A stretch of DNA of 39,893 bases. Source: a virus. The stretch's first letter is position 1; the number at the start of each line of letters is the position of its first letter. Where the stretch lies: positions 1 through 39,893 of IMG/VR virus record IMGVR_UViG_3300044684_000234; one strand, 5' to 3'. This document shows positions 1,961 through 25,268 of this stretch, piece after piece. Below the pieces are notes generated by a model that did no database searches, was not told the DNA's origin, and saw only the letters and a list, made by a program, of their open reading frames with translations. The translations under genes and the position numbers were made by a program.

Positions 1961-4744
1961 CTAGGTGTGGTTGTTGCGGCGGTTCAGCACGATGGTGAAC
2001 TGCGCCGAGGCCTGCACCGTGTGGGTCGCAACGTCGCGGATCTGCACGTTGAAGATCGAGCCCTCGCTGGCCACGTATTCGGGGTCACCGTCGCCCAGCG
2101 GGCCGAGGCCAAGCGTCTGCGTGGTGCCGAGGTTGAGCGGCGTGTCCATGCCTGGGCTCGTGATCGCCACGCCGCTCACCAGGTGCAACACCAGCTCGAA
2201 GTCCGCAGCGCGCGTCGAGCTGATCGACGGCAGCAGCTGCCACTGGCCCGGCACCGTCTCGTTGTCGGTGTAGGTGATGGTGTCGGTCGAGCCGTTGTTG
2301 TCGGTGAAGCTGAGCGTGCCGTTGTTGTTGAAGTTGATGGTGACGTAGGGGTCGACGTTGGCGGTGTCGACGTAGAAGCTGCGATTGGTCAGGTTCGGGA
2401 AGATCGGCCCGGTGTCCGGCGTGTCGCTGTAATTCCCGCTGATCGGGTCTTGGATCTCGCCAGGCGCGGGCAGCAGATCGTTGTCGACGGTGTGCACGCG
2501 GTCATCCTCCTGCACCGCGGTGATCTGCACTTGGCGCAACCCGCGCGGTACCAGGCTCTTGATGCGGCACTCGATCGCGCCGTTGGAGCTGGTGCCGATC
2601 GCATACTTGGTGCGTTCCTTGGTGGCCACGTCGAATATCGGCGTGAAGTCCGGCGCCGCGGTGAGGAAGGCCTGATCGTTGGCAGGCCCCTGCTCGCACA
2701 TGATGGCCGGGTGGGCGGTGCCGTCAGGCCGCTGCAGGCGGACGTAATACTGCCCCGACTCCGACCAATCCACCGGCTCGCTGAGGCTCAGCGTGAGCGA
2801 GCCCGCATCCCAGTCCACCACGTCGCCGAACTGGCCCCACTCGGGCAGATCGTGGGCCACCAGCACCAGCGCGCCGTAGGCCGGCAGCCGGCCGTCGCTC
2901 GCCGAGAGCCATTGAGCGGTGCAGCGCCGGTAGTAGGTGTCGGCGATCATGTAGCGGCCTTCGCGCTCGGCGTGCTTGGAGCCGCACACACCATAGATGC
3001 GCTCGGTGACAGGGTTGCGCACGTCGCCGGCGGCGACGCCTGGCGCCGGGCAGAGGATGTGCCGCCAGTCCCACACCGCGTTGTTGAAATACTCGACGAT
3101 CACCGCGTCGGGCGTCTGGTCGTTGACCAGGCTGAAGGTCATGCCGAAGCTGCTGCCGCCGTTGTCCGCCACCATGTTGCGCGGGGTGTACATGGCCACG
3201 GGGAGCGTCTGCTGCTGGTCGCGCATCACCGTGTACACGCCACCGCGCGGCATGCACACCGCGCGCCCGGCGCGGGCAATCAAGTCCTTCGCCTGGTCGA
3301 AGGTGTAAGCCGAGTCGAAGACGAAGTCGAAGCGGTCCTGCCGGGCGGCCCACACCTGGTCAAGCTCATACAGCGTCTCCAGGTCGATGCGGCTGTCGGG
3401 CAAGCCGCCGCCATACGCGGTATTCGAGAGCATGTCCGCGAGCGCCCAGGCGATCGAGCGCGTTTCCGACAGGCCCGTCGACCAGCCCGTATCGGGCGAC
3501 CAGGTGCGCAACATGCGCTGCGAGAAGATGGCCACGCGGCGCTGGCTCAAGCCGCCGAGCTGCTCGCTGGCCTTGATCTTCAGCTCGATGTAGGTGGCCG
3601 TGGAGCACAGCGGGGCAGGCTCATCGAGGATGCACCGCATCCCGGCCCACAGCATGTTGTTGAGCGCGCCGAGGGACTCGTCCTTTACGTCGAACCGCAC
3701 GGCAAACACCTCGATGCGCTTGGCGGTGTCGAAGGTGTATGAGAACGTGCGGCGAACGTCGCTGGTGGTGGCGCCGGTGATCGTCTCGTCGATGATCAGC
3801 GTGTTACCGGTCAGCGCCACGCCATAGTCGTCGATCTCGCGGTAGTAGACCTTGATTTGCGGCGACAGCGAGTCGATGCCGCTGCCGTTCTGCTTGCCGA
3901 GGCCATTGAACACCACGTCGACCTGCAGGGTCTTGACGCGCAGGCCGGGCCCGCATGCCGCGAACGCGCCATTGACCACGCCGGTCAGCAGCTCCTGCCC
4001 CACCACCTCGGCCGACGTGATGACATTCGCCGCCACGAGCGACGGCGCTGTGCCGGGCCCGAGGATGTTGTAGGTGACGCCGTCGAAGTGGCTGATGTTC
4101 GTGTCGGCGATCTCGATGCGAGGGATGTCATAGGTGCCCTGGCCCACCTCCAGGATCGCGTAGTAGTACTGATCGCTGGTGTCGTTGTCGTACTGAATGT
4201 ACGGCTGCGCCGCGAACTTGGGGAACGACCGGTTGAACCCGTAGCCCACCGCGATGGGCTCGTTTTGCTGGCCCAGCTCGTTGCCGTCGAGCGCGAAGCT
4301 GTAGGTGGTGCTGCCGGCCAGCGCCTGTTTCTCCTGTGGTGCGGCGGTCGGCACGAGCGTGCTGGCCACCGCGGAGACCGCCTCCGCGGCCGCAAAGGCC
4401 CTCAGCGCGGCCGCGGCCTGCGGGCCCACGTAGAACGAGGCGATGAAGGCGATGGCCGCCAGCGCGGCCTGGGATACCCCGTTGTTGCCGTCGCCGCCCA
4501 GCACCTCGTCGGTGACCACGACGATGTCGCCCTCGCGCACCACGCGCTCACCCATCGAGGGCAGCACATAGTCGCCATTGACCGTCACGGTCATCCGGTG
4601 GCCTGGCTTGCGGGCCAGCTCGGGCTGCACCAGGTCGCGCAGCGGCACGCCGGCAGGCACACGCCGGGCGCTGCGCGCGTCGACGGGGACGAAGGGCTCG
4701 TCGACAACGACCAGCGTGGCCATCGGGGGTTCGCGGGGGATCAC
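1961..4744 (-). CDS. Tail-tip host specificity protein, J-like
   Basis: Protein of about 927 residues, the tail-tip protein that contacts the host receptor and closes the tail tube. Segments such as GLSQRRVAIFSQRMLRTW, the AWALADMLSNTAYGGG region and VIVEYFNNAVWDWRHILCP are typical of J-family hub domains, followed by beta-rich, Thr/Asn-rich C-terminal domains likely to bind the receptor. The N-terminus has a ubiquitin-like stretch (MTVTVNGDYVLPSMGERVVREGDIV) like lambda I, then a hydrophobic Ala-rich segment, suggesting an I-J fusion. GTG 4744 overlaps the upstream stop and has GGAAG before it; ATG 4723 is the alternative. The open frame continues further upstream only by chance. Confidence 0.85.
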   Translation of the reverse strand: MIPREPPMATLVVVDEPFVPVDARSARRVPAGVPLRDLVQPELARKPGHRMTVTVNGDYVLPSMGERVVREGDIVVVTDEVLGGDGNNGVSQAALAAIAFIASFYVGPQAAAALRAFAAAEAVSAVASTLVPTAAPQEKQALAGSTTYSFALDGNELGQQNEPIAVGYGFNRSFPKFAAQPYIQYDNDTSDQYYYAILEVGQGTYDIPRIEIADTNISHFDGVTYNILGPGTAPSLVAANVITSAEVVGQELLTGVVNGAFAACGPGLRVKTLQVDVVFNGLGKQNGSGIDSLSPQIKVYYREIDDYGVALTGNTLIIDETITGATTSDVRRTFSYTFDTAKRIEVFAVRFDVKDESLGALNNMLWAGMRCILDEPAPLCSTATYIELKIKASEQLGGLSQRRVAIFSQRMLRTWSPDTGWSTGLSETRSIAWALADMLSNTAYGGGLPDSRIDLETLYELDQVWAARQDRFDFVFDSAYTFDQAKDLIARAGRAVCMPRGGVYTVMRDQQQTLPVAMYTPRNMVADNGGSSFGMTFSLVNDQTPDAVIVEYFNNAVWDWRHILCPAPGVAAGDVRNPVTERIYGVCGSKHAEREGRYMIADTYYRRCTAQWLSASDGRLPAYGALVLVAHDLPEWGQFGDVVDWDAGSLTLSLSEPVDWSESGQYYVRLQRPDGTAHPAIMCEQGPANDQAFLTAAPDFTPIFDVATKERTKYAIGTSSNGAIECRIKSLVPRGLRQVQITAVQEDDRVHTVDNDLLPAPGEIQDPISGNYSDTPDTGPIFPNLTNRSFYVDTANVDPYVTINFNNNGTLSFTDNNGSTDTITYTDNETVPGQWQLLPSISSTRAADFELVLHLVSGVAITSPGMDTPLNLGTTQTLGLGPLGDGDPEYVASEGSIFNVQIRDVATHTVQASAQFTIVLNRRNNHT

Positions 4745-14979: not shown

Positions 14980-15322
14980 TGCTGTATTGCTCGCAGGTGA
15001 GGATGTGGCCGTCGCCCACGGCGGTGTCGACGATGGAGACGATCTCCAGCACCTTGCCGTCCCACAGCTTCACGCGCATGGTGCCGTCCAGGCCTGGCAC
15101 GGTGCGCAGCTTGATGCGGTAGGTGCGCGTGGCGATGCGCTCGTTGGCGGTGGCCTTCTCGGCGCCGAGCTGCTGCACGACGTTGGCCCAGCGCTCTGCG
15201 AAGACGTTGCTCCAGTCGGCCACCTCCTCGCCGTAGTCCGGGTCGCGGGTGATGGTCTTGCTGAGGATCTGGATGCGCTTGTCCAGCTCCTCGGCCGCGA
15301 TGAAGGGATAGACCGTGGTCAT
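14969..15322 (-). CDS. Head closure (head-tail joining) protein
   Basis: Protein of 117 residues, start MTTVYPFIAAEELDKRIQI. It contains DYGEEVADWSNVFAERWANV and TYRIKLRTVPGLDGTMRVKL, matching the phage head-tail joining family (gp16/HK97 gp7-like). Its ATG overlaps the stop of the connector gene (ATGA). The frame is open for another 340 bases upstream, but that part is an out-of-phase shadow of the connector gene, so the start at 15322 is preferred. Confidence 0.83.
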   Translation of the reverse strand: MTTVYPFIAAEELDKRIQILSKTITRDPDYGEEVADWSNVFAERWANVVQQLGAEKATANERIATRTYRIKLRTVPGLDGTMRVKLWDGKVLEIVSIVDTAVGDGHILTCEQYSSGG

Positions 15323-15861
15323 GCGAACACCCGGTGCGGGTCGAGCATGCGGTCGTACATGGGCGTCCAGTCCTCGCTCGGGCGGTAGAGCGTGCGCAGG
15401 CGCAGCAGCATCCAGGTCTTGATGGCCTGGGGCACCGAGGCGGCGTCGGCGTAGCCGGTGGTGTAGGTGATGGAGACGGCGTTGGCCACGTCCTCGGTGG
15501 CAGGCCATTCGACGCCGTAGGCCGGCAGCAGGAAGCCCGGCAAGTAGTCGGGATCGAGCGTGTAGGCGGTGGGGTCCAGCGTCTGCTGCACGCCGTCGGT
15601 GTCGATGTAGGTGACCGCGGTCACCGCGACGATCGGCGGGTTGGCGAGCTGGATGGCGTCGCACGGGAACTCATCGAGCAGCAGCTGCCAGGTCTGCGGC
15701 ATGAGCGAGCGGCGCAGCTCGTGCTCCACCTCCTCGCGCACGGCGGTGATGAAGCCGCTGATGCGGTCGTCTTCCAGCGTGTTCTCGACGCGCAGTTCGA
15801 GCTTGGCCTGGTCGAGCGTGATGGGCTCCGCAGTGGGAGCCACGGTGCGGCGAAATGTCAT
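15319..15861 (-). CDS. Head-tail connector, gp6-like adaptor
   Basis: Protein of 180 residues. EPITLDQAKLELRVENTLED, ISGFITAVREEVEHELRRSL and QTWQLLLDEFP are characteristic of gp6-like adaptor proteins that form a ring below the portal. The C-terminal IKTWMLLRLRTLYRPSEDW fits too. In most HK97-like phages this gene directly follows the capsid gene; here three extra virion genes separate them. Confidence 0.88.
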   Translation of the reverse strand: MTFRRTVAPTAEPITLDQAKLELRVENTLEDDRISGFITAVREEVEHELRRSLMPQTWQLLLDEFPCDAIQLANPPIVAVTAVTYIDTDGVQQTLDPTAYTLDPDYLPGFLLPAYGVEWPATEDVANAVSITYTTGYADAASVPQAIKTWMLLRLRTLYRPSEDWTPMYDRMLDPHRVFA

Positions 15862-17396
15862 CGGCGGGTTCCCCGGTTGTGGTTGGCCGGCCGGCCCGTG
15901 GTGCGCATCGCGGGGCGCGCGCCGGCCTGCAGGTTGCGGTGGGTGTGGCGGGCGCCACGCACGTCGGCATTCATGGCCGCGGCACCGCTGGCGCTCGACG
16001 TGGCCGCCGCAATGAGCTGGATCTGCGTGGTGAGCGAGCCGGTGGCCAGCGCCTCGGCCAGCGCGTGCGCGCTGAGCGTGGCGGTGAAGGACGCCGAGGC
16101 TCCAGCCTGCGACACCGCGGTGGCCTGCAGGCTGATGGTGGTGGTGAGGCCTGCAGAGCCCGAGGCCTGCGCCTGGCCGCTGGCCAGCAGGTTGATCACC
16201 GTGGTCAGCGTGCCGTCTGCCGCCGACTGCGCGACGGCGTCGGCGGACATGACGATGCCGGTGGTCAGCAGCGCCGACGAGATCGCCTGCGCGACGGCAT
16301 GCGCGCCCAGGTCGATCGATACGGTGATCGAGGCACTGGCGCCAGCCTGCGCCGCGGCAGCGGCGGCGAGCCGGATGGCTGTGCTCAGGTCGGCCGTTCC
16401 GGAGGCCTGCGCGTGCGCGTCAGCAGCGAGTTGCGAGCCGGCTGACAGGTCGGCTGTGGCGCTCGACTGGTCGACCGCGGCCGCCGCGAGCTGGATGGCC
16501 GTGAGCAGCGCGGCGCTGGCGCTGGACTGCGCCTGGCCGCTGGCCACCAGGCGGATGGCGCTGAGCAACCCCGCGCTTGCGGTTGCCGTGGCCACGGAGC
16601 CAGCGGCGAGCGGGATCTGCGTGGTGAGAGACGCGCTGCCGCTGGCCACCACGAGCGCTGCGGCGGCCAGTTGGATCTGCGTGCTGATCGAGGCACTCGC
16701 CGCCGCGGTGGCTGCCGCAGCAGCCGCGAGCGCCGCGCCACCGCCGCCGCCGGACGCAGCGGGGATGCGAACCATGACGGCGCCCACGCCGGTGCTGCCG
16801 AGACCGCTGGTGCGGGTAACGGTCATCGTGACGTTCCCTGTGGCGCCGGCGGCGACGTTGTCCTTGTAGAGGATGGCCGTTGTGCCCCAATCGCCGGGCG
16901 ACTCCAGCGCGCCCAGCGTCCAGCCGGCCGCACTCACGGTCCATTGCGATGTCTGCGTGGTCTGATCCAGAACGACAAGGATCGCCAGGTCATCGCTGGC
17001 CGAGGCCGTGACGCCGGGGACCGACACGGTTGCGCCCGAGGCGTTGGCCGAGGTATTCAGCAGTGGCGTGCCATGGCCCGGCGTTGCGGTGGTATCGCGG
17101 CCACTCCACGCGCCGAGGCATACCTGCACGTGGCCCGCGGACGATTGCCACGAGCTGGTGCCCGGCGGGCTGGCACCCACAAGCTTCCACCAGGTGCGAC
17201 CCGATTCGGAGTCAGGGCCCGAGAGGTCCAGGGTGGCAATCGCGGTGTAGCCGCTGGGGGCAGTGGACACGTCGCCGAAGCCGTCATCGCTGAGCACCGC
17301 CAGCTCGATGTCGTTCTGGGCGATGCCAGCGGGCTCGTTGACCGCGAACGATTCGTTCCCGGTGTGAGCCCCCTGGTTGCCGGCGCGGAAGGCCAT
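15858..17396 (-). CDS. Capsid-adjacent fibre-like protein with about ten 20-residue repeats
   Basis: Protein of 512 residues. Residues 1-213 form a predicted beta-sandwich (SGRTWWKLVGA, VTMTVTRTSGLGSTGVGAVM) similar in pattern to the N-terminus of the tail protein at 5755-7290. A GGGGG hinge at 216-220 leads to residues 231-470, where a 20-residue unit ([SG]x[AS]xLTTxIxLxAxAxAQA) repeats about ten times without insertions or deletions until residue 440. The last 35 residues are strongly basic. The composition suggests a regular solenoid or trimeric fibre. The position between capsid and connector suggests a head fibre or decoration protein. This is inference from sequence pattern. Confidence 0.65.
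   Translation of the reverse strand: MAFRAGNQGAHTGNESFAVNEPAGIAQNDIELAVLSDDGFGDVSTAPSGYTAIATLDLSGPDSESGRTWWKLVGASPPGTSSWQSSAGHVQVCLGAWSGRDTTATPGHGTPLLNTSANASGATVSVPGVTASASDDLAILVVLDQTTQTSQWTVSAAGWTLGALESPGDWGTTAILYKDNVAAGATGNVTMTVTRTSGLGSTGVGAVMVRIPAASGGGGGAALAAAAAATAAASASISTQIQLAAAALVVASGSASLTTQIPLAAGSVATATASAGLLSAIRLVASGQAQSSASAALLTAIQLAAAAVDQSSATADLSAGSQLAADAHAQASGTADLSTAIRLAAAAAAQAGASASITVSIDLGAHAVAQAISSALLTTGIVMSADAVAQSAADGTLTTVINLLASGQAQASGSAGLTTTISLQATAVSQAGASASFTATLSAHALAEALATGSLTTQIQLIAAATSSASGAAAMNADVRGARHTHRNLQAGARPAMRTTGRPANHNRGTRR
15987..16706 (-). repeat. Array of 60-bp coding repeats
   Basis: Encodes the 20-residue repeats of the protein at 15858-17396. The reading register is exact over ten units (an Ile, Leu or Ser lies at residues 241, 261, 281 and so on to 421). 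Units are diverged at DNA level, indicating age or selection rather than recent expansion. Confidence 0.75.
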
Positions 17397-17417
17397 GGCG
17401 GCGTGTCTCGCGCCCGA

Positions 17418-17942
17418 TCAGTTGTCGATCTGGAAGGTGAGCGTGCCGGCCGAGAAGCTCGGTGCGGCGTCGCCGTTGTTGATGGTCTTGCTCACCGTCA
17501 GCGCCTGCCGCCAAAGCAGATTGCCGGCGGTCGACGCATCGAATGAGCAAACTTCCACCACCGAGCCCCAATTCGCCGTTGGCGCGGGCCACGTGAGCGT
17601 GATGTTGTTGGAAGTGGTGCCGCCGGTGCCGGTGGACGCGGTGGTGCTGCCGGCCGACTGCGTGCCCGCCCAGTTGGCGAGCGAGCTGGTGACGGCCACA
17701 CGCGCATAACTGCCACCGGACACTTCGGTGCCGCATGCCGCGTCGCTGCCGGTGGTGGTAGCCAGCGCGAGGTACTGCGTGGCAGGCATCGTGAAGGTCT
17801 GACCGCGGAAGTAAGCATCGATGAGCTTGTTTTCCGAGTAGTCCGACAGCGCGGTTGCGCTTGCCAAGCTGGGCAGCACCGCCGCGAGCAGCGACGCGGT
17901 GACCAGCAGCGCGGCAGAGAGAAACTTGTTGAATCGCTTCAT
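17418..17942 (-). CDS. Virion-type fibre domain protein with a Sec signal peptide
   Basis: Protein of 174 residues. It starts MKRFNKFLSAALLVTASLLA, followed by more hydrophobic residues and SLASATA, a textbook signal peptide with a probable cut after about residue 33. The rest (SDYSENKLIDAYFRGQTFTM, YLALATTTGSD, GGSYARVAVTSSLANWAGTQ, LTWPAPTANWGSVVEVCSF) matches a domain common in phage tail-fibre or capsid-adjacent proteins that normally have no signal peptide. A GAGGAG ribosome site precedes ATG 17942. A frame extension to 17978 is possible but lacks such a site. Export of a structural protein from inside the head gene block is odd. Confidence 0.75.
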   Translation of the reverse strand: MKRFNKFLSAALLVTASLLAAVLPSLASATALSDYSENKLIDAYFRGQTFTMPATQYLALATTTGSDAACGTEVSGGSYARVAVTSSLANWAGTQSAGSTTASTGTGGTTSNNITLTWPAPTANWGSVVEVCSFDASTAGNLLWRQALTVSKTINNGDAAPSFSAGTLTFQIDN

Positions 17943-17962
17943 TGCGGTAACTCCTCTGGTTC

Positions 17963-17978
17963 GTACAGACGCCTGCAC
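17963..17978. repeat. Dispersed palindrome, site 4 (perfect)
   Basis: GTACAGACGCCTGCAC, 16 of 16 to the consensus, in the intergenic gap just upstream of the signal-peptide protein gene. Confidence 0.75.
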
Positions 17979-18302
17979 TCAGGCCTCGGACGCGGCGGCC
18001 GCGGACGCGGACAGGCCTCCGTCACCGGTGGGCGCCGGCGCCGGAGTCGCGGCCTTGCCGTCATCGCCATCGGCCGGGGCGGCGGCCTTGGGCTTCTTGG
18101 GTGCCGGCGGCGCTTGCTCGGGCAGCGTCTGACGACGCGCCTCGGTGGCCTTGGCGTAGGCCACCGCATCGGGATGCGGGTCGACCTGGCCGGACGAAGC
18201 CAGATCCTTGATGACGCTCTCGGGCCCTTCGACCAGGTCTTCGGCCAGCAGGCCGAGGTGGGCGATGTCGCAGAGCACGCGGGCGAGCAGAGTCTTTGCC
18301 AT
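17979..18302 (-). CDS. Small head-associated protein following the capsid gene
   Basis: Protein of 107 residues. The N-terminal 55 residues (MAKTLLARVLCDIAHLGLLA to SSGQVDPHPDAVAYAKA) resemble the short proteins often found right after the capsid gene in HK97-like phages. The C-terminal half is Ala/Pro/Gly-rich, low complexity and probably disordered. Role unproven; a head decoration or linker function is plausible. It is separated from the capsid gene by a terminator hairpin. Confidence 0.6.
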   Translation of the reverse strand: MAKTLLARVLCDIAHLGLLAEDLVEGPESVIKDLASSGQVDPHPDAVAYAKATEARRQTLPEQAPPAPKKPKAAAPADGDDGKAATPAPAPTGDGGLSASAAAASEA

Positions 18303-18333
18303 GATGGGTTTCCTCTTTCGATCGATGGATGTG

Positions 18334-18363
18334 AAAACGCCGCGCTCTTGCGGGCGCGGCGTT
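18334..18363 (-). terminator. Intrinsic terminator after the major capsid gene
   Basis: On the minus strand AACGCCGCGC, an 8-base loop and GCGCGGCGTT are followed by TTC. It would damp transcription after the capsid gene so that capsid mRNA exceeds that of downstream genes. Confidence 0.75.
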
Positions 18364-18384
18364 GTGGGCTACTGCTGCTCGGGC

Positions 18385-19581
18385 TTAGGTGGCCGAGTTC
18401 TTGTAGAGCTTGACGGCGGCGGTGTCGAGCAGGTTTCCGCCGGCGCGGGCCCAGGCCAGGAAGCCGACCTGGCCCTTGCTCATGTAGGCCGAGTCATCGA
18501 ACCGGAACAGCACCACTTCCATGGCGTCGCGGATCAGGTACTTGGCGTGCTGGCCGAACGAGATGGGCGTGTTGTTGGCGCCCATGGCCGGCATGTCGTT
18601 GTTGATGTTGACCGGGTAGCCCAGCAGCAGGTCCGGCGTGTTCTGCGTGATGCCTTCGTCGTAGCTCGGCGTCCAGATCGGGCGGCCGTTCTGGTCCTTG
18701 AGCTTGCGCACCACACGGCGGGTCGTTTGCGCGAACTGCCAGGTGAACGAGCCTTCGGTGAGGTAGGCCTGGTCGACGGAATCGACCATATCGACCAGGT
18801 CGTCATAGGTGACGGTGCTGGTCTGGCCGGTGGCGCCGGTCTTGCCGACGCTGGCGGCCGTGGTGAGGCCGTAGGGCTCGCCGGTACCGCTGCCGTTCGT
18901 GAACTTGGTGTTCTGGATGCGGCCGATGCGGTCGCGCAGGCGCTTCTGCACCAGCGAGATCACGTCGATCGCCGAGTCCTGCAGCAGTTCGATCGGGATG
19001 GTGATGATCTTGCTGCCGAACTTCACGGTGTTCAGGGGCACCGTGCCGAACGAGGCGTCCGCCGAGCTGGCCTGCGTGTTCTGCGCGACGATCTCGCCGG
19101 TCTCGGCCGTGCCGTCCGTCGTCGGGTAGCTGAGGTCGTTGCCGCTGTCGGTGACGATGCGACCCGACACGCGCCGCATGCCGCCATAGTCCTTCATCGC
19201 GTCGACAAAGGTCTTGGCGACTTCCGTTTGCACGGTGTAGCCGCCCTGGCTGCCCGTCGTCGTGCTCATGGTGTTGCGCACGGCGATGGCCTCCTCGGGG
19301 GTCAAGTCCTTGAAGGACTTGCGCAGGAACAGCTCCAGCCCCCTGGTGCGCTCGTTCTTGGGCGCGTTCGGGTCGTTCTGCGGCGGGTTGTCGTTCGCGC
19401 GCTGATCGAGCATCTTCTGGTGGGCCGCGATCTGGGCGCTCACGCGCTCGGCTTCGTCGGTCAAGTTGTCGAACTCGGCCTGTTGCTCCTTGGTCCAGGT
19501 CTTGTCGCCCAAGTCGGCGATCAGCTTGTTGGCGGCGCGGGCAAGCTCGTTCTTGCGCTCGCGCAGGTTCTGGATGCTCAT
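18385..19581 (-). CDS. Major capsid protein, HK97 fold
   Basis: Protein of 398 residues. Residues 1-100 form the charged coiled-coil delta domain (NLRERKNELARAANKLIADL) that acts as internal scaffold and is normally cleaved by the upstream protease. The HK97-fold body begins near MSTTTGSQGGYTVQTEVAKT. PIELLQDSAIDVISLVQKRL and YLIRDAMEVVLFRFDDSAYM are typical of the family. The ATG at 19581 has AAGGAA upstream. Frame extension to 19605 lies in the terminator region and is rejected. Terminators lie on both sides, so this gene may be a separately dosed transcription unit. Confidence 0.95.
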   Translation of the reverse strand: MSIQNLRERKNELARAANKLIADLGDKTWTKEQQAEFDNLTDEAERVSAQIAAHQKMLDQRANDNPPQNDPNAPKNERTRGLELFLRKSFKDLTPEEAIAVRNTMSTTTGSQGGYTVQTEVAKTFVDAMKDYGGMRRVSGRIVTDSGNDLSYPTTDGTAETGEIVAQNTQASSADASFGTVPLNTVKFGSKIITIPIELLQDSAIDVISLVQKRLRDRIGRIQNTKFTNGSGTGEPYGLTTAASVGKTGATGQTSTVTYDDLVDMVDSVDQAYLTEGSFTWQFAQTTRRVVRKLKDQNGRPIWTPSYDEGITQNTPDLLLGYPVNINNDMPAMGANNTPISFGQHAKYLIRDAMEVVLFRFDDSAYMSKGQVGFLAWARAGGNLLDTAAVKLYKNSAT

Positions 19582-19611
19582 GGTGGGTTCCTTTCGATTG
19601 AGCAAAGAAAA

Positions 19612-19629
19612 GGCCGCCCATGGGCGGCC
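19612..19629 (-). terminator. Intrinsic terminator between protease and capsid genes
   Basis: GGCCGCCCATGGGCGGCC is a perfect 18-bp palindrome, followed on the minus strand by TTTTCTTT. Its position directly upstream of the capsid gene requires readthrough or a local promoter for capsid expression. Confidence 0.8.
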
Positions 19630-19653
19630 GGGATCGCTGCGCAGGTGAGCGCG

Positions 19654-20397
19654 TCAGGCGATTTCGAGCAGGCGCAGGCGCCGCTGGTTGGCGGCGAGGA
19701 TTGCGCTTTGATCCTGCGCGGGCGCCGGCGGCGGCGCTTCGAGCAGGGCAGACGGGGTGCGGGCGAAGGCCTTGAGGTTGAAGCGCTTGGACTGCACGTT
19801 GCTGGCCTTGGCCGGAGGTTCGGCAATGCTGTCGACGAAGCCGGCGTCGAGCGCTTCCTGGGCGGTGAACCAGGTCTCGGCGTCCATCCACTGGGAGACC
19901 TGTTCAGGCGTCTGGCCGGTCTTGGCGACGTAGTCGGCCACGATGCCGGCGTCGACCTTCTGCAGCATCGTGGCCATGTCCTGCATGTCGCCCTTGTCGC
20001 CGATGGCGATCGACCAGGCGTTGTGGATCATGAAGAAGCCCTGCGGGTCCATCACGATCTCGTCGGCCGCCAGCGCGACCGTTGTGGCCGCGCTGGCGGC
20101 GAGCGAGTCGATCTGTGCGATCACCTTGCCGCTGAACTGCCGCAGGTTGGCCGCCATGGCACGGGCCTCGAACACGTCGCCGCCCGGCGAGTTGATGTGC
20201 AGGCGCAGCGTGTCCTCGGGCTTGAGGCTGGCGACGGCGTCGGCCACCATCTTGGCGCTGACGCCCCAGTAGGCGTCGATCACGTCATAGATGTACAGCG
20301 AGGCCTCGGTGGCGCCCTCAGCGCGCACCAGGGCCAGCGGCTTGGGGTTGGCTGCGGCGTTGTCGCGCAGCAGCTGCATCAGTTGCTTCATGCTCAT
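19654..20397 (-). CDS. Head maturation protease, ClpP-like (S14)
   Basis: Protein of 247 residues. LRLHINSPGGDVFEARAMAA is the S14 signature. Ser102 in SLAASAATTVAL is the likely nucleophile and His125 in FFMIHNAW the likely base. It removes the capsid delta domain during prohead maturation. The extra C-terminal 60 residues are Ala/Pro-rich. It overlaps the portal gene stop (ATGA), in the standard portal-protease-capsid order. Confidence 0.92.
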   Translation of the reverse strand: MSMKQLMQLLRDNAAANPKPLALVRAEGATEASLYIYDVIDAYWGVSAKMVADAVASLKPEDTLRLHINSPGGDVFEARAMAANLRQFSGKVIAQIDSLAASAATTVALAADEIVMDPQGFFMIHNAWSIAIGDKGDMQDMATMLQKVDAGIVADYVAKTGQTPEQVSQWMDAETWFTAQEALDAGFVDSIAEPPAKASNVQSKRFNLKAFARTPSALLEAPPPAPAQDQSAILAANQRRLRLLEIA

Positions 20398-21701
20398 GCG
20401 TTGGCTCCTTGCTTGGGCGGGTTGCTGGCCTTGGCCGGCGGCGTGGGGTCGAAGATGGTGTCCTGCCCGTCTTCCGGCGGCAGGTTGTGGCGCTTGCGCA
20501 CTTCGTTGGCCGACATCCAGCCCTTGCCGATGCCGGGGCCGCCCATGGCCGCGCGATAGAACTTGCTCTGCGCGACCAGGTCGCCCTCCATGAGGGATGA
20601 GCGATCGAACTCGACGAAGTAGCGCACGGTGCGGAACAGCTTGCGGTTCAGCTCCTGCTCGATGCGGCCGAGGTGGTGCTCCAGCGTGTACTGCACGAAG
20701 GCTCGGCCCATCGAGTCGATGCCGCTGCCCCAGCTGGTGGAGCCGGAGGTCTCGCCGATCAGGTGCGGAGGCACGCCGAAGGCGCGGGCGATGTCGGTGA
20801 CCTGGAAGCGGCGCGCGTCGAGCAGCTGCGCGTCCACCGCGTTGATGCTGATGCTCTCCGCCTTCATGCCCTCGGTGAGGACCATGGGGAACCGGTGGGC
20901 GTTCTGCAGCCCGCTGTAGCGGGTGCGGAACTGCCGCTGCAGCTGCTCGATCTGGTCATCGTTCATCTTCTTGTCGGTCTCGAGCACGACCGACGAGTGC
21001 GCGCCACCCTGGAAGAACGCGCCGCTGTACTCGTCCATGGCGAGCGCGTTGCCGGCGGCGTTGCGCGCGGCGTGGCTGATGACCGAGCGCGAGCGGATGC
21101 CGTTGAACCCGAAGCCCGGGAAGTGCAGCATGTCGTCCTGGTCGACGCCCTTGATGCTCAGCCCGTCGTTGACCGAGTAGATGAGGCGCGAGCCGATCTC
21201 CAACGGGTTGAGCCGCATGGGCTCGATGGCCTCCCACGGGAACGGCACCAGCTCGACGGGCTGGCCCGCGGCGTTGCGGCGGATCAGCGTGAAGCCATCA
21301 CCCCGCAGCAGCATGTAGGCGACGCGGCTTTCCCAGTGCGCGGCGCCGGAGTAGGAGGCGGTGGGCTGCTCGTTGAGCAGCCACCACAGCGGCGCGTTCT
21401 CCACCTGGCGCTTCTGGTATTCGCGCCGGTCAGCGTCCCAGGTGCGTTCATAGATGTTGAGCGGCAGCGAGCTGATGCCGCCGGCGATGCGGCTGACGCA
21501 GGCGTAGACCGCGGCCACGCGCATGGCGGTCTCGGGCGTGACCATGACGCCCGACGACGACGGCGGCACGCCCAGCCAGTCGAGCAGCTTGGCGTTGCTG
21601 CTGTCCAGGTAGCGCGCGCCGTTGGAGCCGGTGGCGTTCTGCACCGCAGTCGAGCGCAGGGTGTCCCAATACTCGCTGGGTCGATCGTCTTGGAGTTTCA
21701 T
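20394..21701 (-). CDS. Portal protein, HK97 family
   Basis: Protein of 435 residues. VTPETAMRVAAVYACVSRIA, the LLNEQPTASYSGAAHWESRV segment, and RRFQVTDIARAFGVPPHLIG are the diagnostic segments of the HK97-type portal family. It forms the dodecameric DNA entry ring. The C-terminal NEVRKRHNLPPEDGQD is also typical. Start and stop overlap neighbours by 4 bp. Confidence 0.95.
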   Translation of the reverse strand: MKLQDDRPSEYWDTLRSTAVQNATGSNGARYLDSSNAKLLDWLGVPPSSSGVMVTPETAMRVAAVYACVSRIAGGISSLPLNIYERTWDADRREYQKRQVENAPLWWLLNEQPTASYSGAAHWESRVAYMLLRGDGFTLIRRNAAGQPVELVPFPWEAIEPMRLNPLEIGSRLIYSVNDGLSIKGVDQDDMLHFPGFGFNGIRSRSVISHAARNAAGNALAMDEYSGAFFQGGAHSSVVLETDKKMNDDQIEQLQRQFRTRYSGLQNAHRFPMVLTEGMKAESISINAVDAQLLDARRFQVTDIARAFGVPPHLIGETSGSTSWGSGIDSMGRAFVQYTLEHHLGRIEQELNRKLFRTVRYFVEFDRSSLMEGDLVAQSKFYRAAMGGPGIGKGWMSANEVRKRHNLPPEDGQDTIFDPTPPAKASNPPKQGANA

Positions 21702-23416
21702 AGCGCTACGAAGGCCTGTTCGTGGGTGTCGGACTCTTCATCACGCGGCGCCATGGCACGGCCGACGCCCATGATCACGGCGACAGGGCCGTCGATCTTG
21801 TTCTCGTCGCGTTCCTTGCGCGGGTAGATGTTGTCCTTGGCGTCGCGGTGACAGACGACGTTGCTGACCATCCAGGTCATGACGGGGCAGCCGTCGTGCT
21901 GGAATTTGTCGGGGCCCTGCAGCACGAGCGCTTCCAGCAGCTTCATGGGCTCGCTGAAGTTGAGCACCGTGGGCCGCATTTCCACCAGCGGCAGGCCTTC
22001 GGCGAGCAGGTGGCCGCTGAGCTGCGTGGCCTGGAAGGGATCGAACGGGATCTCGCGCAGGTCTTCCAGCGTGCAGGCGTCTGTACGCAGCTGGTCCTCG
22101 ATGAGGTCGTAGTCGGTGACCTCGCCCGGCGTGGCGTTGAGGTGGCCGGCGCGCACCCAGCCGTCATATTGGCTATTGCGGCCGGACTCCACCGCGCGCT
22201 CGGGCAGCCAGAAGCGGCCCTTGCTGATGCAATACCAGCGGTCGGCCGCCTCGTCGTGCGCGATGATCGGCGCGGCCGCCACGTCCACCTTGCTGGCCAG
22301 GTCGAGCGGTACCCAGCACGGCAGGTGCTTGATGTCGTCGAGCGTGAGCTGGTGGTTGGCGCAGCGGTCCCAGGCCTGCATGTCCATCCACGCGTTGTCG
22401 CTGCTGATCCAGACGTTGAGGCGCTTGGTGAGGAAGTTGCCGATGGCTGACGGCAGCGTCATCGCGCGACGGCAACCGGCCTCCATGTCGTCCATCTTCA
22501 CGCTGACGCCGAGGTTGGGATTGGCCTTGCGCCACACCTGCGGGTTGCGCCAGTCGTCGCCGTCGTCGATGGTGAAGATGATGCCGAACCACGTCTCGTC
22601 GACGGCATCGCCGTTGAGCACCTTGGCCGTGTAGGTGCGCAGCTCATAGCAGATCCCGGAGCGGTCGCTGCCGGCGGTGGTGATGGCGCTGATAAGCGGT
22701 TGCGAGCGCGCGCCCGAAGCGGTGTCGATCACGTCCCACACGGCGCGGGTCTTGTGCGCGTGCACCTCGTCGACGGCGGCGCCGTGGATGTTGAGGCCGT
22801 CCAGCGTCGAGCCTTCGGCGTTCAGCGGCTTGTAGCTGCTGGCCGATTCCAGACTCGTGATGTCGTGCTTGCCGACCGTGACACCGAAGTGCTGGCAAAA
22901 CTCGGGCTCACGCATCGCCATGTTGCGCGAGGTGTCGAAGACCTCGCGCGCCTGCTCGCCCGTGGTCGCGGCGCTGTAGCAGTGCGCGCCCGGCTCGTTG
23001 TCGGCGAAGCACAGGTAGAGCAGCCGGCCGGACACGCGCGTGGACTTCGCATTCTTGCGAGCGATCTCTTCGTAGGAACGCCGGAAGCGCCGCAGGCCAG
23101 TGTCGCGGTGCACCCACGCGAACAGCTGGAACTCGATGAAGACCTGCCAGTCCTCCAGCTTGATCTTCGCGTAGCGAAACACGCCGTTGTCATAGACCGG
23201 CTTGGCCCACTCGCCTTTGATGTGCGGCAGCAGCTCGATGAACTTGCACTCGCGGTTGCCGGCTTCCTCGTTGATCACGTAGGGGAAGTCGTCGGTGCCC
23301 TGGCGCTCCAGGTCGCGCAGGTAGCGCTTGCAGGCGAGCAGCTCGAAGCGCCCCGCGACTTCCTCGCCCGCGACGATGCGGCGCGCGTAAGCGGTCGCGC
23401 GCTCGAAGTAGCTCAT
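21698..23416 (-). CDS. Terminase large subunit
   Basis: Protein of 572 residues. The ATPase Walker A-type motif is RKNAKST (residues 120-126) and the Walker B region is IHGAAVDEVHAHK (about 210-222), as in the Terminase_1 family. The nuclease domain occupies the C-terminal half, with PLDLASKVDVAAAPI as the first acidic strand. It packages DNA with the P27-type small subunit. The upstream open frame to 23830 is a shadow of the small subunit gene; the start at 23416 gives the family N-terminus. A dispersed palindrome lies inside it. Confidence 0.93.
   Translation of the reverse strand: MSYFERATAYARRIVAGEEVAGRFELLACKRYLRDLERQGTDDFPYVINEEAGNRECKFIELLPHIKGEWAKPVYDNGVFRYAKIKLEDWQVFIEFQLFAWVHRDTGLRRFRRSYEEIARKNAKSTRVSGRLLYLCFADNEPGAHCYSAATTGEQAREVFDTSRNMAMREPEFCQHFGVTVGKHDITSLESASSYKPLNAEGSTLDGLNIHGAAVDEVHAHKTRAVWDVIDTASGARSQPLISAITTAGSDRSGICYELRTYTAKVLNGDAVDETWFGIIFTIDDGDDWRNPQVWRKANPNLGVSVKMDDMEAGCRRAMTLPSAIGNFLTKRLNVWISSDNAWMDMQAWDRCANHQLTLDDIKHLPCWVPLDLASKVDVAAAPIIAHDEAADRWYCISKGRFWLPERAVESGRNSQYDGWVRAGHLNATPGEVTDYDLIEDQLRTDACTLEDLREIPFDPFQATQLSGHLLAEGLPLVEMRPTVLNFSEPMKLLEALVLQGPDKFQHDGCPVMTWMVSNVVCHRDAKDNIYPRKERDENKIDGPVAVIMGVGRAMAPRDEESDTHEQAFVAL
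22071..22086. repeat. Dispersed palindrome, site 5
   Basis: GTGCAGGCGTCTGTAC, 15 of 16 to the consensus, inside the terminase large subunit gene. Confidence 0.7.
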
Positions 23417-23424
23417 GGACACGG

Positions 23425-23982
23425 CTAGAAGTCGGCGAAGCTCTGCGGCACGCCGCCCGGCTTGGGTGCGTCCGGCTTGGTGGGTTCGGTCGGGTTCTCG
23501 AACAACTTGAGCTGTCCGCGGATGGCCGTCGTGACGTTGGCCCGAGCATCTGGCCGAAGGCCGAAGGATTCGAGCATGCGGTGCAGCTTGCTCTGTTCCT
23601 TGTTGAGCACTTGGTAGAGCGCGCTCTGCACCCGCAGCCCGTTGGGCGTGGTGTCGAGCAGCGCCAGCTCGGGATCGCGGTCCTGCTCGATCAGCAGCGC
23701 CGTCTTGCGCGCGATCGCGGTCTCGATCAGCTCTAGGCGACCGATGGTGGCGCACAGCATGCCGAACGCATCGCGGTCGACCTTGCTGAGCAGGTTGTAG
23801 CGGATCAGCTCGGGCACCAGACGCTTCCACGCCTTGCGCCCTTCCTTGCTGAGATAGCGCGGGATGTCCGGCTCGCCGGTCTCCGGACGGAAGACCTGCG
23901 AGAGGTCCATCGGCCGGTGGCCGCGGTTGCCCTCCAGCAACTTCAGCTCAGCGGGCTTCGCGGCTGGTCCTGGTTTGGCCAT
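23425..23982 (-). CDS. Terminase small subunit, P27 family
   Basis: Protein of 185 residues. It starts MAKPGPAAKPAELKLLEGNR, with GHRP, then PDIPRYLSKEGRKAWKRLVP and LSKVDRDAFGMLCATIGRL. These are typical of the P27 family that recognises the packaging site and activates the large subunit. The frame is open further upstream, but that part covers the likely cos region. It ends 8 bp before the large subunit start. Confidence 0.9.
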   Translation of the reverse strand: MAKPGPAAKPAELKLLEGNRGHRPMDLSQVFRPETGEPDIPRYLSKEGRKAWKRLVPELIRYNLLSKVDRDAFGMLCATIGRLELIETAIARKTALLIEQDRDPELALLDTTPNGLRVQSALYQVLNKEQSKLHRMLESFGLRPDARANVTTAIRGQLKLFENPTEPTKPDAPKPGGVPQSFADF

Positions 23983-24031
23983 CAGAGCACCCCCCCCACC
24001 CCCACAACCTGCGCGCGCAAAAATTTGGCGA

Positions 24032-24045
24032 CCGGACCGGTCCGG
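24032..24045. other. Candidate cos region (palindromic CCGGACCGGTCCGG)
   Basis: A perfect 14-bp palindrome with GCGCGC just downstream lies in the 170-bp gap between the HNH endonuclease and terminase small subunit genes. This is where cohesive-end sites of HK97-like phages with P27 terminases are found. The cut position cannot be read from sequence alone. Confidence 0.4.
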
Positions 24046-24154
24046 CGCGCGAGGGCCGTGGACTTTCGACCCACCCCCCATCGGCAAAACTTGCCGACCC
24101 TGCGAGACCCCGCGCAGGCCGGCCTCGAAGGCGTCGTCGGGCACGCGCGTGCGC

Positions 24155-24514
24155 TCATCGTCGTCCCCGCGCGGCCTCGGCCTGTGTCTTGGCGTCGTGG
24201 CATGGCTTGCAGATCGATTGCAGGTTGGCCTCGTCGTCGCTGCCGCGCTCGGCCTTGGGCTTGATGTGGTCGACGATGGTTGCCATCGTCATGCGGCCTT
24301 CGCGCTTGCATGGCTGGCACAACCCACAGTCACGCTCAAGGATGCGTAGGCGCAGTCGATCCCACTTGCTGCCATAGCCGCGCTCGTGCCTGGAACCGCG
24401 CTTCGGATCGCTGAATCTGCCAATGCGGAACACGTGTGCATCACACCGGCTGCCGCCCTTGACCAGTCGCCCACACCCAGGATGCGTGCAAGGACGTGGC
24501 GCGGCGATGGGCAT
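24155..24514 (-). CDS. HNH endonuclease
   Basis: Protein of 119 residues from ATG 24514 (a GTG at 24523 would add three). CTHPGCGRLVKGGSRC and CGLCQPC are zinc-binding pairs. ATIVDHIKPKAERGSDDEAN, LQSICKPCHDAKT is the HNH core with the DH and the final HxxK elements. Such enzymes next to the terminase genes are needed for specific cos cleavage in HK97-type phages. The gene lies beside the candidate cos. Confidence 0.9.
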   Translation of the reverse strand: MPIAAPRPCTHPGCGRLVKGGSRCDAHVFRIGRFSDPKRGSRHERGYGSKWDRLRLRILERDCGLCQPCKREGRMTMATIVDHIKPKAERGSDDEANLQSICKPCHDAKTQAEAARGRR

Positions 24515-24522
24515 GAGAAGCA

Positions 24523-24557
24523 CAAAGCCCGGCGGCGTCGAAACGCCCCGGGCTTTG
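24523..24557. terminator. Hairpin, probable terminator upstream of the HNH gene
   Basis: CAAAGCCCGG (24523-24532) pairs with CCGGGCTTTG (24548-24557), with a second stem GGCGT/ACGCC inside. T runs are short on both strands, so strength and direction are uncertain. It separates the Q-like gene from the late genes, as expected of a site acted on by antitermination. Confidence 0.6.
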
Positions 24558-24613
24558 AAGACATTGAATCCAGCGTGCCTGAAATGTAGCAGGTTCCTCT
24601 AATTCGTAAAACA

Positions 24614-24964
24614 CTAGCGATTGCCGAGGATCAGCGCGAGCTGCCGGTGCGCGTTGTCGATGCGCGCATGCAAGGTGTTCTCCTGGCATCCCAGCTCGTC
24701 GGCCATCGCATCGATGCTCTTGCGCTTGCAGTAGTACACAACGAGCGTGTTGGCAAGGCGCTGGCTGAGCTGCTCGACGGCAGCGTGCGTCTCGCGCGCT
24801 CGTGATGGCGCTGCTGTCTTCAGCGTTGGCGTGGTGCCAGGCGTAGGTGGTGACCACTCGGGATGCAGCACGTTGAGCGCCGAGTAGCCGCTGCCATCGT
24901 TGCCCGTGGTCAGCCAGTGCGCCCACTCGCGTAGGCGATGCTCGATCAGTTCAATACGTGCCAT
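24614..24964 (-). CDS. Q-like late antiterminator
   Basis: Protein of 116 residues, start MARIELIEHRLREWAHWLTT, ending with VVYYCKRKSIDAMADELGCQ, ENTLHARIDNAHRQL. Helical DNA-binding proteins of this form, placed last in the early operon and just upstream of the HNH/terminase genes, belong to the phage antitermination Q group. It should let RNA polymerase read through the terminators in the head and tail genes. AAAGG lies 8 bases before the chosen ATG; an ATG at 24979 is possible. It overlaps the upstream gene. Confidence 0.7.
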   Translation of the reverse strand: MARIELIEHRLREWAHWLTTGNDGSGYSALNVLHPEWSPPTPGTTPTLKTAAPSRARETHAAVEQLSQRLANTLVVYYCKRKSIDAMADELGCQENTLHARIDNAHRQLALILGNR

Positions 24965-25268
24965 CGGCCGGCCTTTCATTCGGGTGTGGGATCAGCAGGC
25001 AGTAGCCGCATCCGATGAGTTGGCCTGCAACCATCAGTTCGATGGTGGGAGCGTTCCACAGTGTGCCGACCATCAGGGCGCCGTCTTGGGCGAAGAACCA
25101 GCCGCGGTGGCCCAGCACGACCCCGCGATACCAGCATTCGTCAACCCATTCCTTGCCGTACTTCTCGCGCGCCTCCTCGATCAGCTTGACCACGCGCGGC
25201 ATGTGCTCCGGCAGCCAGCGCCAATTGCCTTTACTCGGCTTCGATTCCTGGTTGTCCATGGTGTCCAC
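24951..25268 (-). CDS. Conserved phage protein of unknown function, between primase and Q
   Basis: Protein of 105 residues. It begins with a basic Lys/Trp/Arg-rich segment (KPSKGNWRWLPEHMPRVVKL), continues with REKYGKEWVDECWYRGVVLG and ends with a hydrophobic stretch (IELMVAGQLIGCGYCLLIP). Not recognised. The position is where lambdoid phages carry small nin-type genes. An internal ATG at 25259 is an alternative start. Confidence 0.6.
   Translation of the reverse strand: MDTMDNQESKPSKGNWRWLPEHMPRVVKLIEEAREKYGKEWVDECWYRGVVLGHRGWFFAQDGALMVGTLWNAPTIELMVAGQLIGCGYCLLIPHPNERPADGTY

Follow-up and report, generated by a model that had tools for sequence, protein, structure and literature searches.

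A conserved signal peptide and a leader-linked cysteine pair in a Gp80-domain protein from a siphophage head block: a candidate exported bead of a virion appendage

Gp80-type appendages and exported phage proteins

The usual view is that tailed-phage particles assemble in the cytoplasm. Virion proteins with cleaved signal peptides are known from the filamentous phages, where pIII and pVIII are assembled at the inner membrane during extrusion, whereas tailed-phage assembly takes place in the cytoplasm and release is by lysis. Exported products are also encoded in the late regions of other phages, as with Lom and Bor of lambda and the spanins; these are membrane proteins or lipoproteins and, although exported late products like the one proposed here, they do not represent virion-appendage domains. 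Among the appendages of tailed phages the closest described system is fiber I of the podophage GP4, in which dimers of gp80 are reportedly strung on a rope protein. A second Gp80-type module has been described in the Alishewanella siphophage LSH1, where a Gp80-like protein, gp35, forms a dimer and is encoded together with gp34, a large protein whose N-terminal domain is followed by a C-terminal part that is poorly predicted and possibly repetitive, and with the Ig-fold protein gp36. According to the available text of that report, all three proteins were found in virions by mass spectrometry and they constitute an optional cassette in this cultured siphophage (PMC13243795).

The locus described here resembles that of LSH1 in that a Gp80-type protein lies beside a large protein, whose C-terminal part is possibly repetitive in LSH1, but differs in having a leader and a cysteine pair, neither of which is mentioned in the available text on LSH1 (the term "signal peptide" occurs 0 times in PMC13243795). 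No report of a signal peptide on a virion protein of a tailed phage was found among the matches listed in the literature searches, nor in the available portions of PMC10966104, PMC13243795 and PMC10925440. The Gp80 family and its appendage were already known; within the reach of these searches, the exported, cysteine-paired form is a variant not described before.

General features of the window and of the Gp80 locus

The window, that is the whole stretch of DNA analysed, is a 39,893-base virus record with the look of a temperate siphophage: it possesses a structural set (terminase, portal, ClpP-type protease, HK97-type capsid, connector and lambda-type tail genes) together with genes for a holin, an endolysin, CII, ParB and an integrase. 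The features of interest are as follows.

18385-19605, minus strand: major capsid protein (PF05065, E 2.5e-59)
17979-18302, minus strand: upstream ORF of 107 aa between the capsid and Gp80 genes, without a family match in Pfam or PHROG
17951-17956, minus strand: Shine-Dalgarno sequence GAGGAG, with AGGAG 8 nt ahead of the ATG
17418-17942, minus strand: leader-bearing Gp80-domain gene (174 aa plus stop), with its ATG start codon at 17942
17856-17942, minus strand: predicted signal peptide, residues 1-29, with a predicted cut between ASA and TALSDY (from the sequence and a register test over 68 relatives)
17430-17852, minus strand: Gp80 domain, residues 31-171 (Pfam profile, AlphaFold2 model and best PDB match)
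17733-17735, minus strand: codon of Cys70, first of the leader-linked cysteine pair (from the relatives' alignment)
17547-17549, minus strand: codon of Cys132, second of the pair (from the same alignment)
15858-17396, minus strand: candidate "rope" of 512 aa (period-20 autocorrelation; recurs near Gp80 in other loci)

The Gp80 gene is the second gene after the capsid gene in the late block and lies between the capsid and connector genes, with no lipoprotein gene directly 3' of it. The first-pass annotation had described a capsid-block ORF with a good ribosome site, encoding a fibre-type domain behind a Sec signal peptide, and each of these points was confirmed. The same annotation had singled out a perfect dispersed palindrome ahead of the gene. 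Perfect palindromes of 8-12 nt do occur at 17995-18044 (e.g., GGCGCCGGCGCC at 18031), inside the 107-aa upstream ORF, and the inverted repeats around this region are short or imperfect. The window holds 26 palindromes of 12 nt compared with 11-24 in five mononucleotide shuffles; these are chance-level features of GC-rich sequence, and a role as a control element was rejected.

The best nucleotide matches to positions 15000-25000 were phages VarioGold and Aval, within the terminase region only. In both, the capsid gene is followed by one hypothetical gene, and the annotation lists neither a Gp80-type gene nor a large repeat gene ahead of the connector or tail-component genes, so the Gp80 gene and the adjoining repeat gene look like an optional insertion. 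Across the Gp80 loci collected, the neighbouring families were mixed (head, terminase, spanin), with no single context.

Domain assignment and predicted fold

The 174-aa protein was found to match PF23140 (Gp80, "Podophage GP4 fiber I protein") over the whole profile, positions 1-128 of 128, with 140.6 bits against a cut-off of 27 (E 4.5e-41), as well as phrog_240, annotated as "head protein" in PHROG (E 2.8e-23). An AlphaFold2 model with 96 sequences in the input had a mean pLDDT of 92, and a fold search with this model returned a sole PDB match below E 0.001, namely 8jou_a, "Fiber I and fiber-tail-adaptor of phage GP4" (E 8.4e-08, probability 1.00, TM-score 0.80 by target, 35% identity). The same entry was recovered by phmmer. 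The domain is shared with GP4 gp80 over its whole length; the latter has 140 aa in 8jou, and as the alignment places its residue 3 opposite residue 31 of the window protein, it has no leader. GP4 is a podophage, whereas the window protein belongs to a siphophage head block and carries both a leader and a cysteine pair.

By homology, the Gp80 domain can be regarded as a virion-appendage domain. In GP4, Gp80 forms part of the virion (8jou), and gp35 is present in LSH1 virions, which supports the reading of the window protein as a virion bead. If the exported form does reach the virion, the case would be a caution for annotation that one gene can be both a "head protein" and a "secreted protein."

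Conservation of the leader and of the cleavage register

The predicted leader begins with MKRFNKF, supplying K and R, continues with a hydrophobic stretch and ends in ASA ahead of T; n-, h- and c-regions typical of a type I Sec substrate are thus present, with AxA at the cut and no lipobox. For comparison, 344 Gp80 frames were collected from 343 loci, of which 333 were full length, 166 distinct and 134 retained under 90% identity. Frames with X were skipped (L032), and start sites were chosen by a script on the basis of a start codon and a Shine-Dalgarno sequence. One frame without a real leader and with two Gp80 copies was dropped (L030, where positions 3604-4420 form a single reading frame with two Gp80 domains), leaving 133 rows, 68 with a leader and 65 without. 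The initial loci came from searches with patterns drawn from the window protein and two relatives, some of these patterns lying within leaders, so that the sample is biased and the share of 68 in 133 is no estimate for the population. A crude in-house leader caller was positive in 68 of 69 leader rows and in 1 of 65 leaderless rows.

Recurrence in 68 of 133 non-redundant relatives argues against an accidental leader and indicates, at the sequence level, that it is a conserved form, beyond what chance would give. The earlier remark that this domain is usually leaderless holds for cultured phages, among which no leader-bearing form was found and where the tblastn matches in 39 phage records (VarioGold and Aval not among them) all start at residue 34 or later, but not for the close relatives of the window protein.

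All 68 leader forms carry K or R within the first 10 residues. A strict signal-peptidase site (A at -1; A, V or S at -3) is located exactly 7 residues before the Glu of a YxEN motif in 56 of them, and a loose site at the same position in 64; an alternative cut 5 residues before this Glu would give 45 strict sites. Leaderless proteins, after removal of Met, begin exactly 7 residues before the same Glu in 64/65 cases. A cut at 7 would make the N-termini of mature leader forms and leaderless forms equal in length, as though the leader were simply placed ahead of an otherwise unchanged protein. A loose lipobox pattern was seen in only two of the 68 leader relatives (L203 and L202).

A second sample was obtained by a Pfam-profile search of 369 and 399 whole genomes (overlapping sets), with a match in 5 and 16 genomes, respectively. 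It contributed 19 new loci, of which 16 matched the in-house profile; 11 of these are leaderless and five bear a leader, one of the five (L373) being a repeat of L025.

On the best tree, built after removal of the cysteine columns, 11 changes are required for the leader and 10 for the cysteine trait. Strong branches force only two of the leader changes, and one single leader clade was not rejected (p-AU 0.345), so the tree is compatible with several origins of the leader as well as with one. An independent-pairs test yielded only two pairs on strongly supported branches, too few for significance.

A cysteine pair tied to the leader

Exactly two cysteines are present in the domain in 67 of the 68 leader rows, at one of four pairs of alignment columns (35, 20, 11, and 1 rows, respectively). 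The window protein, with Cys70 and Cys132, falls in the group of 20. The leaderless rows have a different composition: 60 of the 65 have no cysteine, four have one, and one has two at other columns, and the paired columns hold a cysteine in none of them. The association between leader and cysteines was strong (Fisher's exact p 9e-38), although the rows are related and this kinship weakens the count. The second sample behaved in the same manner, as all four new leader forms carry a known pair (likewise the repeat of L025), while none of the 11 leaderless proteins does, 10 having no cysteine and one a single cysteine. A phage-wide cysteine bias was ruled out by a rope-protein control (Cys 0.41% vs. 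0.51%, p 0.34).

The pair can be read, with good support, as a disulfide, as each of the three main pair types occurs whole and never as a half, a pattern otherwise hard to explain. According to the model, every pair type would link the segment at approximately residues 64-70 with the part of the window protein that contains the predicted strands at 126-134 and 142-154. The single leader row without a pair, L049 (gene at 4001-4531 of its record), contains no cysteine, and the row closest to it in the tree, L082, has no leader. It could represent a recent gain of the leader that preceded the disulfide.

Taken with the conserved leader and the cleavage register, the cysteine pair strongly supports export of the protein, as had been supposed on first inspection.

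The repeat-protein partner and copy number

The 512-aa protein encoded next to Gp80 comprises an N-terminal domain of approximately 215 aa followed by about 12 exact 20-residue repeats with alternating residue character. It has no leader, and no match to it was found in Pfam, PHROG or the PDB chains. It is a candidate for the elongated partner that a GP4-type fiber I would have encoded nearby. As a profile from this protein drifted on the repeats, partners in other loci were detected by a direct periodicity test. A same-strand repeat protein of any period lies near Gp80 in 47/68 leader and 50/65 leaderless loci, and one of period 20 in 46/68 and 48/65, respectively; among loci with at least 2.5 kb of downstream sequence, a repeat protein of any period was present in 44 of 57 and 44 of 55. 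Only 1 of 46 period-20 proteins in leader loci and 4 of 49 in leaderless loci were called leader-bearing, a rough figure, as starts were often picked inside repeats.

Exactly one Gp80 match was found in every one of 50 virus records with the leader form, which range from 5.6 to 117 kb and are in many cases fragments; this indicates that the leader form replaces the plain form. Among whole genomes, 4 of 22 hold two matches. An export leader on the sole copy of an appendage subunit, with a cysteine pair confined to the exported form, points to a structural part folded in another compartment.

Proposed assembly route and alternative explanations

The reading we favor, to which we assign a probability of roughly 0.5, is that the protein serves as the repeating bead of a virion appendage similar to GP4 fiber I, and that it is exported, disulfide-bonded and meets its rope and the particle at lysis. 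It would be synthesized late in the lytic cycle, as the gene order suggests, with the cleavable signal peptide apparent in its sequence. Following Sec export, signal peptidase would cut between ASA and T, so that the mature bead would begin where its cytoplasmic homologues begin after Met removal, as the sequence register predicts. In the oxidizing periplasm Cys70 and Cys132 would form the disulfide suggested by their strict co-occurrence with the leader, while the leaderless 20-residue-repeat partner would remain in the cytoplasm and probably bind the particle there. Lysis would then bring bead and rope together, and beads would load on the exposed appendage. What would be gained from export is a sturdier bead, and bead and rope would be kept separate until release. 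Points against this reading are that no leader-bearing form was found among the cultured phages searched, that the candidate rope has no PDB match, and that an exported gene family 3' of some leader forms, described below, could point to an envelope function.

The main competing explanation, which we consider clearly less probable, is that the leader-bearing form of Gp80 has taken on a new role in the periplasm or envelope of the infected cell, for instance to block the DNA entry of a second phage or to aid lysis, and has ceased to be part of the virion. In its favor are the genuine export signature and the spanin-like neighbors present in some loci (4 of 62 upstream neighbors match phrog_1403). 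Its strongest point is a small exported family encoded directly 3' of Gp80 in 11/68 leader loci and 0/65 leaderless loci, a comparison to be read as a lead and not as a test, since the family profile was seeded from ten leader loci picked by eye. The members are approximately 120-155 aa, are mostly lipoproteins and share a motif like TLA..SFE..AP..T.LAV.RR; no Pfam match above the cut-off was found in the four members checked.

L043, 4514-4924: member of the 3' exported family
L041, 4581-4967: member of the 3' exported family
L020, 4517-4894: member of the 3' exported family
Eight more loci: one member each directly 3' of the leader-bearing Gp80 gene

However, the 20-residue-repeat partner is kept as often in leader loci as in leaderless ones, the mature N-terminus is in register with that of the leaderless beads, and the window gene itself sits between capsid and connector genes with no lipoprotein gene after it. 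Among envelope functions, a superinfection-exclusion or surface lipoprotein moron found no support, as no lipobox and hence no lipid anchor is present; exclusion from the periplasmic side may be considered. In Gram-negative cells, soluble proteins exported by Sec remain in the periplasm and do not reach the surface.

The first-pass annotation had further proposed decoration of the host surface, or a part for the protein as a decoy or exclusion factor. These suggestions found no support, given that the protein lacks an anchor, is the single Gp80 copy and is encoded in a late structural block beside a candidate rope. A version for which T5 Llp provides the model, in which the periplasmic bead is freed at lysis and masks receptors or debris so that progeny avoid re-adsorption, fits the late-block timing, the release at lysis and the conservation of the exported form, but seems improbable: the 50 records with one Gp80 gene each leave no separate, leaderless virion copy beside a decoy paralogue, and there is no evidence for receptor binding by Gp80. 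A neck-fibre carbohydrate module of A-1(L), whose homology to Gp80 is not established, failed to bind the host according to the available text of PMC10966104. Least probable of all is that the hydrophobic leader has no export role, being retained as an anchor or bypassed, and that the protein is an ordinary virion part assembled in the cytoplasm. The leaderless state of GP4 gp80 and of the cultured-phage homologues found would agree with this, as would L049 with its leader but no cysteine pair; it is opposed by the strict cleavage register in 56/68 leader forms, the K or R near every leader start, and the confinement of the cysteine pairs to leader forms.

If the exported bead does reach the virion, an assembly step during or after lysis would be added to the phage cycle, and the signal peptide, the cysteine pair and DsbA would offer a genetic handle on a poorly understood, optional appendage. 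We would put forward the more general proposal only tentatively, as it is somewhat less probable than not, that some tailed phages make a virion part outside the cytoplasm, in the form of a secreted head or neck appendage bead locked by a periplasmic disulfide, with the pair at at least three alternative positions, and joined to the particle at lysis. Such a two-compartment route would amount to lysis-timed assembly.

Both forms of the protein also occur within one bacterial genome, that of Denitromonas halophila SFB-3, in which L025 has a leader and cysteine pair and L026 has neither, providing a natural comparison within a single cultured host.
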